NCBI RefSeq assembly: GCF_002706795.1
Contig: NZ_CP017705.1
Span: forward strand, 558,001-622,000
DNA length: 64,000 bases
From: Brevibacillus laterosporus DSM 25
GTDB taxonomy: Bacteria; Bacillota; Bacilli; Brevibacillales; Brevibacillaceae
Direction: 5' to 3'
Below, piece after piece: positions 44,072-61,518 of the stretch. The notes under the pieces are model-generated. The model had not been told where the DNA came from. It searched no databases and saw only the letters and a program-made list of their open reading frames with translations. Every line of letters starts with the position of its first letter. Within the stretch, counting starts at the first letter, position 1. A program made the translations under genes and the position numbers.

Positions 44072-44130
44072 CTTTCATTTTCCTTCTAGACACTTAGCTG
44101 GCTCTATTAGTTGCTTGAACTCCTCGAATT

Positions 44131-45264
44131 TTATTCAAAAGAAGTAGTTGTTTCTTCTGTTGGATGGTTATTTTGATTACTATTAGCCTGGTTATTGTTC
44201 TGGTTCTGGTTCTGGTTCTGGCTCTGATTATTGTTCTGGTTCTGATTATTGTTTGTGCTCGAGGTATTCCGACTACCTTCATTCTGGTTATCATTTCCAT
44301 TATTCTGAATGTCATTTTGTTGATTGTCGGTATTTTGTCCATTCTTTTGGTTACTATTATTATTTTGACCGTTGTTGTCCGGTGATTGTGAAGATTGATC
44401 CTGCGTACGATTCTCAGTGCTTCCATTAGCAGACGTATCTGTACCTGTGCCTGACTCATTCGTTAAGCTACCATCAGGATTTGTTAGTTGTTGTAACTGT
44501 TGTTGGTTAGTCACATGATGACCGTATTCCTCAAACCATGTCACATCTAATAAGTTAACAATTCCTTTTTGCTCCTTAGGAATCTCCTGCACAATGGACG
44601 GGTACCAGGGTAGTTTTTTCTTTAATTGCGAGAGAGTACTACGAATCTCATTCCCATCCCGCATATTTAGCACCACTTGCTGATTGTCATATTTGGTAGG
44701 TACTAGCGATAGATCAGAGATTTGGTGCAAAACGCCTCCTTGTAGTGAAACAAGAGCTTCAGCCAACTGCTTTAACATTTTTGGATCTTTACTTGCCCAA
44801 GCTTGAATAATGGGTCTGTCCATCATAAGGACTTGGGTTGGAGGAGCTAAGATCGTCCCATCCTCCAATAAATAGCTAGGCTGCTTTTGTCCATTTACAT
44901 ACAAGGCCGTTCGGCGGTATTCTTGAATATTTAAGCGAATGATACCAGGGAAATCACGAGAGATAGAGATATCTTTGATACCCTTTAATGTGGAAATACC
45001 TGCTTCAACATCGCTATCCCATACATTTAAAAACTGCATGCCGTTGGTAAGAGTGGACGCCTGAATAATCTGCTCCTTGGTGTATAAAATGTTACCATAG
45101 ACTTGAATATCAGTTACCTTACTGTAAGGAGAGCGGAAGAATACCACGCCTAAGACTAGTAAGAAAAAGATAGCCAGAATAATAATTAAACGGCGGTTTC
45201 CTTTTTTCTTGCGCGGCGTAGCATTTTTAACGAGCGGTATTCTGTCGTCTCTATACCTATTCAT
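44131..45264 (-). CDS. divIB: Cell division protein DivIB/FtsQ with a long Asn/Gln-rich C-terminal tail
   Basis: Septal membrane protein that links the divisome with FtsL and DivIC. Residues 1-25 are a basic cytoplasmic tail, 27-46 a span, then the POTRA domain (KVTDIQVYGNILYTKEQIIQAS) and the beta domain to about residue 250. Residues 253-377 are a 125-residue extension rich in Asn, Gln, Ser and Thr, made of short NQ-type repeats, with no counterpart in the 263-residue B. subtilis protein. ATG at 45264 after GGGGGGAG. Confidence 0.93.
   Translation of the reverse strand: MNRYRDDRIPLVKNATPRKKKGNRRLIIILAIFFLLVLGVVFFRSPYSKVTDIQVYGNILYTKEQIIQASTLTNGMQFLNVWDSDVEAGISTLKGIKDISISRDFPGIIRLNIQEYRRTALYVNGQKQPSYLLEDGTILAPPTQVLMMDRPIIQAWASKDPKMLKQLAEALVSLQGGVLHQISDLSLVPTKYDNQQVVLNMRDGNEIRSTLSQLKKKLPWYPSIVQEIPKEQKGIVNLLDVTWFEEYGHHVTNQQQLQQLTNPDGSLTNESGTGTDTSANGSTENRTQDQSSQSPDNNGQNNNSNQKNGQNTDNQQNDIQNNGNDNQNEGSRNTSSTNNNQNQNNNQSQNQNQNQNNNQANSNQNNHPTEETTTSFE
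44196..44226 (-). repeat. Hexanucleotide repeat coding Asn-Gln residues in the DivIB tail
   Basis: Four near-perfect tandem copies of a ttctgg-type unit on the plus strand, reading AAC-CAG on the coding strand. A further related copy follows. Such tracts can change length by slippage. Confidence 0.7.
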
Positions 45265-55898: not shown

Positions 55899-58145
55899 CT
55901 ACTTGTCTACAGACACATATGTAGGAGACAGCTTCACTTGGATCGTCTCTTTACCAGTCAGTATTGTACCTGCTTCTACATTTTGTTCCACGACGTATCC
56001 GCTACCTGTGGCACTTACTGCAATATTTAGCAAATTGCCATACTCCAGTACTTCCCGCAATGATTTCCCTTTAAAATTCGGCATTTTCATTGAGGCTTTG
56101 CCATCTGAGGCAAGTAGTATGGTCGTGGTGCTGCCTACTTTTTCATAAGGAGCAGGAATTTGATTAATCACATTGGTTCCCTCACCAACCACATCTACTT
56201 CCTTAAAGCCAGCCTGCTTTGCCCGTTCCTTTGCTTCCTTTAAAGGGATACCTGTAAGCTGTGGTACAGTGGACTCCTGTAATTGCTTTTCTTCTACCAC
56301 AGTAGCTTGAGCAGCCAAGGCACTTCGATCAGGCTTCTCCTGCAAATATTGCAAGCTTTTTTCCATAATCGCTTGGAACATTGGTGCAACTACATCCCTA
56401 CTAGCAGTTGAATAGGATGCTCCGCCACCCGGATCATCGACTACAACATAAACCACCAATCTCGGATTTTCTACAGGAGCAAATCCAATAAAGGAATAAA
56501 TATATTTATTATCAATGATTTTTCCTCGCTCATTATACTTCTGCGCCGTACCAGTTTTCCCAGCTACACTAAAATTCTGCAATTTAAAGTTACGGCCAGT
56601 CGCTCCTGAATTCACATCACCATCAACGACGGTTTGCAAAATCTTACGGGTTTCACGTGCCGTTGCTTCTGAGATCGGACGCCCAACCTCTTTAGGCTGA
56701 TACCGCTCTATCACCTGACCTGTCCGTGGATCGATACGCTCTTTTACAATGAGTGGTTGCATCAATTTACCACCGTTTGCAATAGCAGCCACAGCCATGA
56801 CCTGCTGAATAGGTGTTACCGTTACCCCTTGTCCAATCGGAGTAACAGCCAAGTCACGCGGTGAAAATTTATTTATCTTTTCAACGTTCGTTAAGTTCCC
56901 TTGTTCTTCACCGGGCAGTTGAATCTTCGTCTGGTTTCCAAAGCCAAAAGCTTTAAAATAATGCTCAAGCTTAACTTGTCCGAGCTTTTCGTTACCTAGC
57001 ATAGCAAATAATACGTTACTAGAACGCTGTACACCAGTTATATAATCAATAGTGCCCCATCCAACACCATTATGATCTTTGATAGGCGCGCCAGTCTTCC
57101 ATGCTTTATAATGTCCTGATTTAAAGGTCCAATTAGAATTAAACACACCTTCTTGAATAGAAGCCGCTAGTGTAACAATTTTAAATGTTGAACCTGGCTC
57201 AAACGTATAGCTCACGCCAAAATTCATATAATTGACGATAGTACGGTAATTGTTAGGGTCATGCTGCGGACGATTAGCCATCGCGAGGATTTCGCCCGTA
57301 GTGGGATCAGATACAATTACTGACATCGCCTTTGGATGAAATGCTACATCTGTTTTATCTAATGCCTCTTCTACGTATGTTTGTATCTGATCGTCAAGGG
57401 TAAGCTTTATATTTTGACCATCTTTTGCAGCTTTAAACTCTGTTTTCCCATCTGGTAACTGATAGCCTAGCGCATCCTTTACCATCTTTAGAGTGCCTTC
57501 TTCACCCTTCAATTCCTTCTTAAATTGCCGTTCAATCCCCATCACAGGTGTTCCTTCAGCATTGAGAAAACCTAATACATGAGCAGCGAATTTTCCTTTT
57601 GGGTAGAAGCGGTTGGTTGTTTCTGAGATTTTGATCCCAGGTAATTGATTTTGTTTGGATTTAACCCCTTTTTCATCGAGTGGGTATTGCATAGCTAAGA
57701 TTTTATCCTTTTGTTCCAAGGTTATTTTTGCGGCTTCAGGACCTAAATTAACCCAGATTGCATTCGGATTCTTAGTGAGACGTTCAAGAATTTTGGACTG
57801 CGGCTCATTGATCACTGTAGATAGTTTCATCGCTGTCATCACGGGGTCTTTCACATAATCATCCGTGTCATTTTTTCCATTTGCCAATATCTTTGGACGT
57901 ACCTGTGCTTCCACTAGATAGGCCCGTCCCTCAAAAGCAAGTACCTCTCCATTTCGATCCAGAATGCTCCCTCGTTTAGGCAATAAGGTCGTATTTCGAT
58001 TCCACTGAGCCTCACCTTCTCCCCTAATCCAGCTAGCATCTACCACCTGTACCCACCACAAGCGTAATACCAAAAGTATAAAACCGAGCAAAATTCCCAT
58101 TCCCACAAGTAAAATACGCATGTTCATTCGCTTTTTTGTTGTCAC
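55899..58145 (-). CDS. pbpB: Septal penicillin-binding protein 2B (class B)
   Basis: Transpeptidase of the division septum. Transmembrane anchor in about the first 30 residues, then the transpeptidase with PGSTFKIV (SxxK), a KTGTA motif, and two PASTA domains at the C-terminus, as in PBP2B. The start chosen is GTG at 58145 with GGGAG upstream. The frame runs on to 58208, where an ATG overlaps the ftsL stop but lacks a ribosome site; an ATG at 58127 is another option. 748 residues from the GTG. Confidence 0.94.
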   Translation of the reverse strand: MTTKKRMNMRILLVGMGILLGFILLVLRLWWVQVVDASWIRGEGEAQWNRNTTLLPKRGSILDRNGEVLAFEGRAYLVEAQVRPKILANGKNDTDDYVKDPVMTAMKLSTVINEPQSKILERLTKNPNAIWVNLGPEAAKITLEQKDKILAMQYPLDEKGVKSKQNQLPGIKISETTNRFYPKGKFAAHVLGFLNAEGTPVMGIERQFKKELKGEEGTLKMVKDALGYQLPDGKTEFKAAKDGQNIKLTLDDQIQTYVEEALDKTDVAFHPKAMSVIVSDPTTGEILAMANRPQHDPNNYRTIVNYMNFGVSYTFEPGSTFKIVTLAASIQEGVFNSNWTFKSGHYKAWKTGAPIKDHNGVGWGTIDYITGVQRSSNVLFAMLGNEKLGQVKLEHYFKAFGFGNQTKIQLPGEEQGNLTNVEKINKFSPRDLAVTPIGQGVTVTPIQQVMAVAAIANGGKLMQPLIVKERIDPRTGQVIERYQPKEVGRPISEATARETRKILQTVVDGDVNSGATGRNFKLQNFSVAGKTGTAQKYNERGKIIDNKYIYSFIGFAPVENPRLVVYVVVDDPGGGASYSTASRDVVAPMFQAIMEKSLQYLQEKPDRSALAAQATVVEEKQLQESTVPQLTGIPLKEAKERAKQAGFKEVDVVGEGTNVINQIPAPYEKVGSTTTILLASDGKASMKMPNFKGKSLREVLEYGNLLNIAVSATGSGYVVEQNVEAGTILTGKETIQVKLSPTYVSVDK

Positions 58146-58207
58146 GGACTCTCCCTCTTCCTCTCTGACAAAAAAAGAAAATGCTACTCCTTCTTGCGCG
58201 AGTAACA

Positions 58208-58636
58208 TTATTGGACTTTTTCGGTTTGTTTGGTTTTTCCGTCTTTTGTCTTATTCTTACTGTCTTCTATAGAAATGCCACCCATATTGCGAACAGATTT
58301 CATATCAAGGACCATTCCCATTTTTTCCGCTTCAATTCCAATACGCTTGGGACTGCTCATTTCATCCACTTTTAACTGCATCGCTTCATTCTCGCCCTTG
58401 ATTTTAGCAATATCTCTTGTCAATACCTGAATCTGATAGTTATTTTGCGAAATTTGATTATAACGGAAGCCTATAATGCTTGTGGCAATGACCAAAGCAA
58501 AGATGAGCAACAAGTACATCAACTTTTCACTTGTGGGTACCCCGGGTCTGATCTTAACAGTACGTTTCATCTTTTTTGGAGATGGAGAACGTCTGTTTAC
58601 TTCATATGCCAAATTCCCACGGGAATAATAACTCAA
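58208..58636 (-). CDS. ftsL: Cell division protein FtsL
   Basis: Small bitopic septal protein that works with DivIB and DivIC. The 142-residue product has a basic cytoplasmic part (1-38), one span (about 39-60) and a leucine-zipper-like coiled coil (about 62-95). The start is TTG at 58636, five bases after a GGGGGGG ribosome site. It lies between rsmH and pbpB, the conserved place. Confidence 0.92.
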   Translation of the reverse strand: MSYYSRGNLAYEVNRRSPSPKKMKRTVKIRPGVPTSEKLMYLLLIFALVIATSIIGFRYNQISQNNYQIQVLTRDIAKIKGENEAMQLKVDEMSSPKRIGIEAEKMGMVLDMKSVRNMGGISIEDSKNKTKDGKTKQTEKVQ

Positions 58637-60213: not shown

Positions 60214-61071
60214 CTATGCTACCTGTTTTCCATACTCGTATGGGGACAGGTAGTTTAATTTTTCCTGAATTCGTTCCTGATTGTAAAAACAGATGTAATT
60301 TTCTACTTTTTGTAATACCATTAGATTTGTTAGGAACTCTCTCTTCGGAGAGGCGAATTCTTCCGACTTTAGCGAGGAGTGGAAGGATTCAATGACAGCA
60401 TTATCATGGCAATTTCCCTTACGGGACATGCTCGTGGTAATGCTGTTTTCTTTTGCTTTATTTTGAAAAGCGTATGAGGTATAAACTGAACCTTGGTCAC
60501 TATGGAGAAGGACACCTCGCGCGTCTCTAGTTTTCGTGGCTTGTTCAAGCGTCTCTAGAACGAGAGAAACATCTTGTCTGTCACTTATTCGGTAAGCAAT
60601 GATCTCGTTGTTATATAGATCCATTATCGAAGATAAGTACAACATGCTTTGACCGTAAGGTAAATACGTAATATCCGTTACCCACTTTTCATTTGGCTTT
60701 AAAGCTATAAATTCCCGGTTCAGCTTGTTTGAAACAATCATTTTACTCTCGCCACTACTAAACGTCTTGCGCTTTACTTTTACACGACATTGTAAATTTT
60801 TCCTTTGCATAACCCTCTGCACTGTTTTACGATTCACTTTTTTATTATAAATACGACCTAGTAAAGCAGTTATCTTGCGATGACCAAAACGATAGTGATA
60901 CTTCAAGCAGAGTTGTTCAATTAGGTATTCAAGTTCTGTACTTGTGTTTTGAAACTTCGCTTTCCAGCGATAATACGTTGCTCGTGGTACAGCAAACAAT
61001 TTTAGTATCTCCGTAATAGTAAACCGATCTTTAAAGCTCTCTACAACGTCAATTAGGCTCGATTTTTTCAC
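60214..61071 (-). CDS. IS3-family transposase OrfB (integrase core)
   Basis: DDE integrase domain: aspartates in TDITYLPYG and HSDQGSVY, and glutamate in NAVIESFHSSLK (the D-D-35-E pattern). An HTH_21-like region (FAVPRATYYRW, then FGHRKITALLGR) precedes it. 285 residues from a GTG that overlaps the last codon and stop of orfA in the -1 frame; AAAGGAG precedes it. It could be made by frameshift with orfA or by coupled initiation. Both ORFs look intact. Confidence 0.93.
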   Translation of the reverse strand: MKKSSLIDVVESFKDRFTITEILKLFAVPRATYYRWKAKFQNTSTELEYLIEQLCLKYHYRFGHRKITALLGRIYNKKVNRKTVQRVMQRKNLQCRVKVKRKTFSSGESKMIVSNKLNREFIALKPNEKWVTDITYLPYGQSMLYLSSIMDLYNNEIIAYRISDRQDVSLVLETLEQATKTRDARGVLLHSDQGSVYTSYAFQNKAKENSITTSMSRKGNCHDNAVIESFHSSLKSEEFASPKREFLTNLMVLQKVENYICFYNQERIQEKLNYLSPYEYGKQVA

Positions 61072-61376
61072 CTCCTTTGAAATTCCTGATACTTTTTTAG
61101 GACTTCTATCTGCAACTCTAATTGACGAATTCTCAGGTCTTTGGTAGCTATCTCGTCTAGCTGATCTTGTCCGTATTTTCCATACATATATTGTTTGCCT
61201 ACCTGTTGAGCAAACCGATACGTTTCTCCATTACGAAACCACTTCATCCATGTCTTTATCTGAGATTTATCCTTGATACCAAGTTCATCCATAATCTGTT
61301 TATTCGTATAACCCTCTTGCTTCATCTTTACGACTTGCCACTTCACCTCTTCTGGATAAGAAACTCTTGTACCCAT
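61068..61376 (-). CDS. IS3-family transposase OrfA (helix-turn-helix)
   Basis: A 102-residue DNA-binding subunit with an N-terminal HTH (YPEEVKWQVVKMKQEGYTNKQIMDELGIKDKSQIKTWMKWF) and a C-terminal leucine zipper (RIRQLELQIEVLKKY). Start at the ATG at 61376 after GGGAGGTG; the frame is open to 61397. Confidence 0.9.
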   Translation of the reverse strand: MGTRVSYPEEVKWQVVKMKQEGYTNKQIMDELGIKDKSQIKTWMKWFRNGETYRFAQQVGKQYMYGKYGQDQLDEIATKDLRIRQLELQIEVLKKYQEFQRR

Positions 61377-61518
61377 GAAAGAAGCACCTCCCATCAAATC
61401 ATATTGTTTAATACGATTCAGGAGGTGCTTTTTCCTTGTCTCAATTTACTGGGTCACTTCATTTGTCAGCAGGTTTTTTTCTTCATTTTTTGATGCCATT
61501 TCCCAGCGAGATTCTTAC

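Follow-up and report, generated by a model that had tools for sequence, protein, structure and literature searches.

DivIB of Brevibacillus laterosporus DSM 25 carries an acidic arm of 126 residues, predicted to be disordered, after its conserved core. This arm is the gamma region already known from DivIB, in an overlong form. In the Brevibacillaceae the length of the DivIB tail is inversely related to that of the PBP2B tail, a pattern that is clear but rests on few events. Since an unstructured gamma tail of DivIB is already known, what is new is the length of the arm, the end that recurs in several long arms, and the inverse relation with PBP2B. The window analyzed here is the whole stretch of 64,000 nucleotides (contig NZ_CP017705.1, positions 558,001 to 622,000). 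Its features that concern us are as follows.

44131..45264, minus strand: divIB, ATG start, 377 aa; cytoplasmic N-terminus, transmembrane helix, POTRA, beta domain and long C-terminal arm
44134..44511, minus strand: arm-coding DNA, DivIB residues 252-377, low-complexity N/Q/S/T/G
44188..44253, minus strand: degenerate hexanucleotide (18-nt) tandem array inside the arm (Tandem Repeats Finder)
44134..44142, minus strand: terminal Ser-Phe-Glu before the stop; [S/N]-F-E is also the end of further long tails in Brevibacillaceae
55899..58208, minus strand: PBP2B homologue with PBP_dimer, transpeptidase and two PASTA stretches; 7 aa follow the last PASTA strand

The divIB gene and its neighbourhood

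All DivIB/FtsQ features looked for are found in the protein: an FtsQ-type POTRA, a beta domain after it, a single transmembrane helix and a position in the dcw cluster. The POTRA_1 domain covers residues 48-116 (43.3 bits, cut-off 23), and residues 115-229 match 1yr1/2alj, 'cell-division initiation protein' (phmmer; E = 7.8e-10 for 1yr1). The AlphaFold2 model, based on 12 sequences, has a transmembrane helix near the N-terminus (residues ~24-44) and strands across the core. As aligned in 11 family members, the conserved core ends at WFxxY(G), residues 243-248. Neighbours in the window include two DUF881 genes and a small membrane ORF, and we take the gene order to be murG-murB-murA-divIB-DUF881-DUF881-small membrane ORF-ftsA, with mur and fts names assigned from the sequences. 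A search by gene order returned only the Brevibacillaceae family again. A two-gene insertion sequence, presumably of IS3 type, lies on the minus strand where the dcw cluster begins (60214-61397), immediately upstream of the mraZ frame. It consists of an HTH orfA (61068-61397) and an integrase-core orfB (60214-61071), with the domains rve, HTH_21 and rve_2.

Composition, disorder and repeat of the arm

Asn and Gln make up 0.49 of the 126 residues after the core, and N, Q, S, T and G together 0.79. The net charge is -10. The only aromatic residue is the Phe of the terminal S-F-E. DivIB is inserted in the membrane with its N-terminus inside, so the arm is extracytoplasmic. In the AlphaFold2 model almost all of residues 223-230 and 232-377 have pLDDT below 50. 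Because the low values begin inside the core and the alignment has 12 rows, the model supports disorder of the tail and is poor evidence for where the core ends. An unstructured stretch after the beta domain, as gamma tails are, is thus seen over residues 232-377 in the 12-row model, and with 126 aa and a net charge of -10 the arm also has the long, acidic, disordered and extracellular character of the PBP1-type region. These results bear out the initial annotation, which had described a disordered N/Q-rich tail of about 125 residues on the outer face of the membrane.

Tandem hexanucleotide units had also been claimed for the coding DNA. Tandem Repeats Finder recovers them as an array of period 6 (44188-44244; 9.5 copies, 76% matches) and, in a longer reading, of period 18 (44188-44253; 3.7 copies, 85%, score 97). 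The next best tandem array elsewhere in the window scores 66. A genome-wide search for DNA encoding exactly N-[QK]-N-[QK]-N-[QK]-N gave a single hit, in the divIB arm. Inside the arm another frame of the minus strand is open for 121 aa (44094-44459). A comparable ORF is absent from G003 and G004, and an overlapping gene is rejected; the frame is likely a by-product of stop-poor N/Q codons.

The literature places the arm among known tails. The gamma region of DivIB is described there as unstructured (PMC3152878). In pneumococcus it has about 35 aa (PMC3152878, PMC3798694) and is protected by PBP2x (PMC3798694). Removal of residues 373-439 (gamma) from S. aureus DivIB abolishes its directional movement and its localisation, and a structure prediction brings the beta/gamma regions of this protein into contact with the PASTA domains of PBP1 (PMC10994846). 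S. aureus DivIB also binds peptidoglycan (PMC11988411). The window's arm is like the gamma tail of Gram-positive DivIB/FtsQ in belonging to the same protein, in following the beta domain and in being unstructured; unlike the known tails, it has 126 aa, is rich in N/Q, is built on a repeat and ends in [S/N]FE, an end unseen in the 83 other Bacilli sampled. A second likeness is with the C-terminal region of B. subtilis PBP1 (PonA), which is also long, acidic, disordered and extracytoplasmic and also sits on a wall-synthesis protein. It is proposed to sense pores of the wall (PMC13270295). A wall-penetrating arm, one of the possibilities raised in the initial annotation, would have its proposed precedent in this region of PBP1. 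Unlike PBP1, DivIB is a non-enzymatic subunit of the divisome, and in PMC13270295 pore sensing is proposed for PBP1 only. Papers searched on the Brevibacillus divisome concern other matters as far as their titles and abstract beginnings tell, with nothing on Brevibacillus DivIB; functional data on the window's protein were not found in the papers searched. Among titles and abstract beginnings that treat DivIB, intrinsic disorder and the cell wall, none concerns a DivIB tail. Neither the DivIB/PBP2B reciprocity nor the FE end was met in the literature searched, which lies mostly outside subscription papers and consists partly of titles and abstracts.

Tail length in Brevibacillaceae and other Bacilli

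DivIB is present in all 39 Brevibacillaceae genomes. Three close species (G000, G003 and G004; the tail of G004 is the same as that of L037, B. laterosporus MSSRFCCT15) have tails of 126, 134 and 138 aa when measured after the core; the remaining two genomes of the genus have 76 and 111 aa. By the family profile, which gives about 3 aa more than the after-core measure for the window's protein, the tail has at least 45 aa in eight of the 39 genomes and 12-30 aa in the remaining 31. In DivIBs from 83 other Bacilli the median is 14 aa and the longest tail 62 aa, and two reach 45. The window's group therefore has the longest DivIB tails among these 122, and the claim that the tail is unusual is supported as to its length among the sampled Bacilli. 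The statement that Bacillus DivIB stops near residue 250 holds roughly, given this median of 14 aa. Note that four of the 83 came from the search itself (299 genomes, with matches in 269 outside the family), and that 79 were hand-picked among the best matches listed, roughly one to a few per genus. Distant Bacilli are therefore under-sampled; the gamma region of S. aureus, for example, has 67 aa.

An assembly artefact is rejected, since the genomes of the two close relatives also carry the tail (134 and 138 aa) and the window's own genome is a single contig. Variation in length through the repeat, which the initial annotation had suggested between strains, is seen among the three close species: their alignments leave the core free of gaps and show gaps of 4-18 codons for the tail, most of them within the repeat or next to it. 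dN/dS is 0.14-0.19 in the tail and 0.07-0.11 in the core (G000, G003 and G004; few sites, and the alignment of the repeat is unsure). The sequence of the tail is weakly conserved, and the long tails are acidic, with net charges of -6 to -18.

The [S/N]-F-E end

The F-E end is found in six of the 39 Brevibacillaceae: G000, G003 and G004 (TTSFE), G002 (PSFE), and G032 and G038 (both INFE). The tail of G032 matches locus L042 (B. fluminis) and that of G038 matches L044 (B. fulvus). These genomes fall in g1, g4 and g7, which are three lineages of the family; beside the window's own genus, the end recurs in two others. Of the eight genomes whose DivIB tail reaches 45 aa or more, two lack the end (G001 and G033), as does the long tail of B. 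migulae (L039), and it is absent from the 31 short-tailed Brevibacillaceae. None of the 83 other Bacilli DivIBs sampled has it. The Phe at position -2 is the sole aromatic residue of four FE tails; the remaining two of the six have one more each.

The codons differ among the five genomes read (TTTGAA TAA, TTCGAG TAA and TTTGAG TGA) and the start of the next gene lies downstream, so a cause at the DNA level is rejected. In shuffled tails, at least four of seven shared any C-terminal dipeptide in 6e-5 of 200,000 draws, the seven long tails having been chosen after the motif had been seen. On the DivIB+DUF881 tree the FE lineages are not monophyletic (AU p = 5e-81; the group was named after being seen), and on the tree with PBP2B added the end needs at least four changes. 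It may be one ancestral end with losses, or it may have been gained repeatedly.

Inverse relation with the PBP2B tail

In 29 of the 39 family genomes PBP2B extends 44-190 aa beyond its last PASTA strand, and DivIB tails in these genomes have 12-22 aa. In seven genomes (G000-G004, G032 and G033) DivIB tails have 56-141 aa and PBP2B tails 4-7 aa. G038, sister to the large g2 clade, is intermediate (DivIB 64, PBP2B 31), and G031 (30 and 4) and G037 (28 and 4) have neither arm. Both arms are long in none of the 39. The longest PBP2B tails of the family (171-190 aa) are those of L180, L181 and L185 (G015, G026 and G008), with G, P, Y and Q in the ends that were read. The relation is not explained by PBP2B having lost or gained PASTA, a cause that is rejected: the alignment extends into the PASTA region for all 39 proteins (for G033 as two pieces), and it is the part downstream that differs.

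The two lengths give a Spearman rho of -0.75 (p = 5e-8) over the 39 related genomes and of -0.81 over 18 chosen representatives. Tree-corrected contrasts of the log lengths give r = -0.40 (p = 0.011) on the first tree (DivIB+DUF881) and r = -0.42 (p = 0.007, 38 contrasts) on the concatenated tree with PBP2B added; with 19 rows left out, mostly close relatives, r is -0.49 (p = 0.028, 19 contrasts). Both trees carry long-branch warnings, and in the second the branch of G033 is oddly long. A binary test of independent pairs finds 2-3 pairs, too few to reach significance. In other Bacilli the two tails are uncorrelated (rho 0.05, p = 0.72; 64 genomes), and the PBP2B tail has a median of 25 aa and a maximum of 65. 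This comparison started from PBP2B searches in 66 of those 83 Bacilli; G043 and G066 were dropped, leaving the 64 with an aligned C-terminal end.

Tails of other proteins served as controls. The PBP1 tail, read in 30 of the 39 family genomes, has a median of 113.5 aa and lies within 103-143 aa in 29 of them; the value of 40 in G005 is probably an alignment-end error and was left in. It is uncorrelated with the tail of DivIB (rho 0.01) or PBP2B (rho -0.04) over these 30 genomes. The class A PBP of the window's own genome (L164:403-2949; C1 about 1311702-1314248) has 849 aa and a 111-aa N/G-rich acidic tail with a net charge of -16. FtsL tails have 22-51 aa in 38 of the 39 genomes (G033 not seen) and show no relation to DivIB (rho -0.20, p = 0.22; 38 genomes), and FtsL is rejected as a third carrier of the arm. 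Its relation to the PBP2B tail is weak (rho 0.31, p = 0.056).

Possible role of the arm

We tentatively favour, at somewhat short of even confidence, the reading that the flexible acidic arm of DivIB is part of a septal synthase complex with one extracellular arm, carried by DivIB or by PBP2B. The arm would be an elongated gamma region in the septal peptidoglycan synthase complex DivIB/FtsL/DivIC plus PBP2B/FtsW. We infer that this complex uses a single disordered arm, which evolution would have placed on DivIB or PBP2B depending on the genus. The arm's likely task is to explore the nascent septal wall or to keep room open within it, much as has been proposed for the B. subtilis PBP1 tail, and the FE end may be a short docking peptide. 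The N/Q richness may be a by-product of slippage at the AAC-CAG-type repeat, tolerated because disorder and acidity would be what matters. A fuller version covers most Brevibacillaceae: one portable disordered arm of the septal synthase moved between DivIB and PBP2B, the PBP1 arm stayed constant, the DivIB arm often ended in [S/N]FE for docking, and the arm serves the complex as a whole rather than the subunit that bears it. This version is possible, though we hold it with more doubt.

Three other explanations have to be weighed against the shared arm. The arm may be mainly a tether, with the carboxylate of its terminal [S/N]FE binding a partner in the wall space (PASTA of PBP2B or another protein). 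FtsZ has a variable disordered C-terminal linker followed by a conserved end peptide, and the tether is likened to it: linker sequence free, length loosely kept, end fixed. In FtsZ as in the DivIB arm a variable disordered linker leads to a fixed end; unlike the FtsZ linker, the arm lies on the opposite side of the membrane, and any partner of its FE is putative. Such docking is consistent with the occurrence of FE in three lineages that have dissimilar linkers and encode it by synonymous codons, with its Phe as the only aromatic in most FE tails, and with the contact predicted for S. aureus DivIB beta/gamma and PBP1 PASTA domains (PMC10994846). However, G001, G033 and B. migulae have long tails without this end, the 31 short tails lack it too, the partner is putative, and the PASTA region reached by the PBP2B alignment is the same in both groups; we consider docking as the main function rather unlikely. 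The arm could also be unselected, a slippage-prone repeat having lengthened an exposed C-terminus where extracellular disorder is tolerated, with an accidental relation to PBP2B. Such neutral expansion agrees with length changes mostly in or beside the repeat, with a tail evolving faster than the core, with the median of 14 aa in other sampled Bacilli and with the small number of independent switches. It fits poorly with a tail of 76-138 aa kept in all five genomes of the genus, a tail dN/dS well below 1 (though from few sites), the recurring FE end, and an inverse relation that involves PBP2B and is not seen for PBP1 or FtsL, and we consider it unlikely, a little more so than docking.

A prion-like N/Q domain that self-assembles at the septum, as the initial annotation had suggested, would explain the 49% N+Q with its NQ-repeat runs. 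N/Q richness is not kept, however, in the orthologous long tails: it is confined to the laterosporus group, and the FE-ended tails of G002, G032 and G038 have 17-34% N+Q. A prion-like character as the trait that matters is therefore not supported. Together with the acidity of the long tails (net -6 to -18), this makes self-assembly very improbable.

For the shared arm, a family that carries it on either DivIB or PBP2B is a natural experiment on the role of the gamma tail. If loss of the arm affects the same step of septum building in both kinds, disordered arms would be general to septal synthases, as has already been argued for PBP1 in wall repair.

Other tails of the divisome

The best-match open frames of DivIC, read from stop to stop, have 102-126 aa in 30 genomes and 174-212 aa in nine g2 genomes (G012, G019, G008, G014, G024, G018, G005, G013 and G022). 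The longer frames could be an artefact of upstream reading or a further tail. The longest FtsL tails are of low complexity, with 49 and 51 aa in L172/L207 (G030) and L178 (G007). The PBP2B arms of G030 and G007 are rather short for their clade, at 66 and 49 aa.
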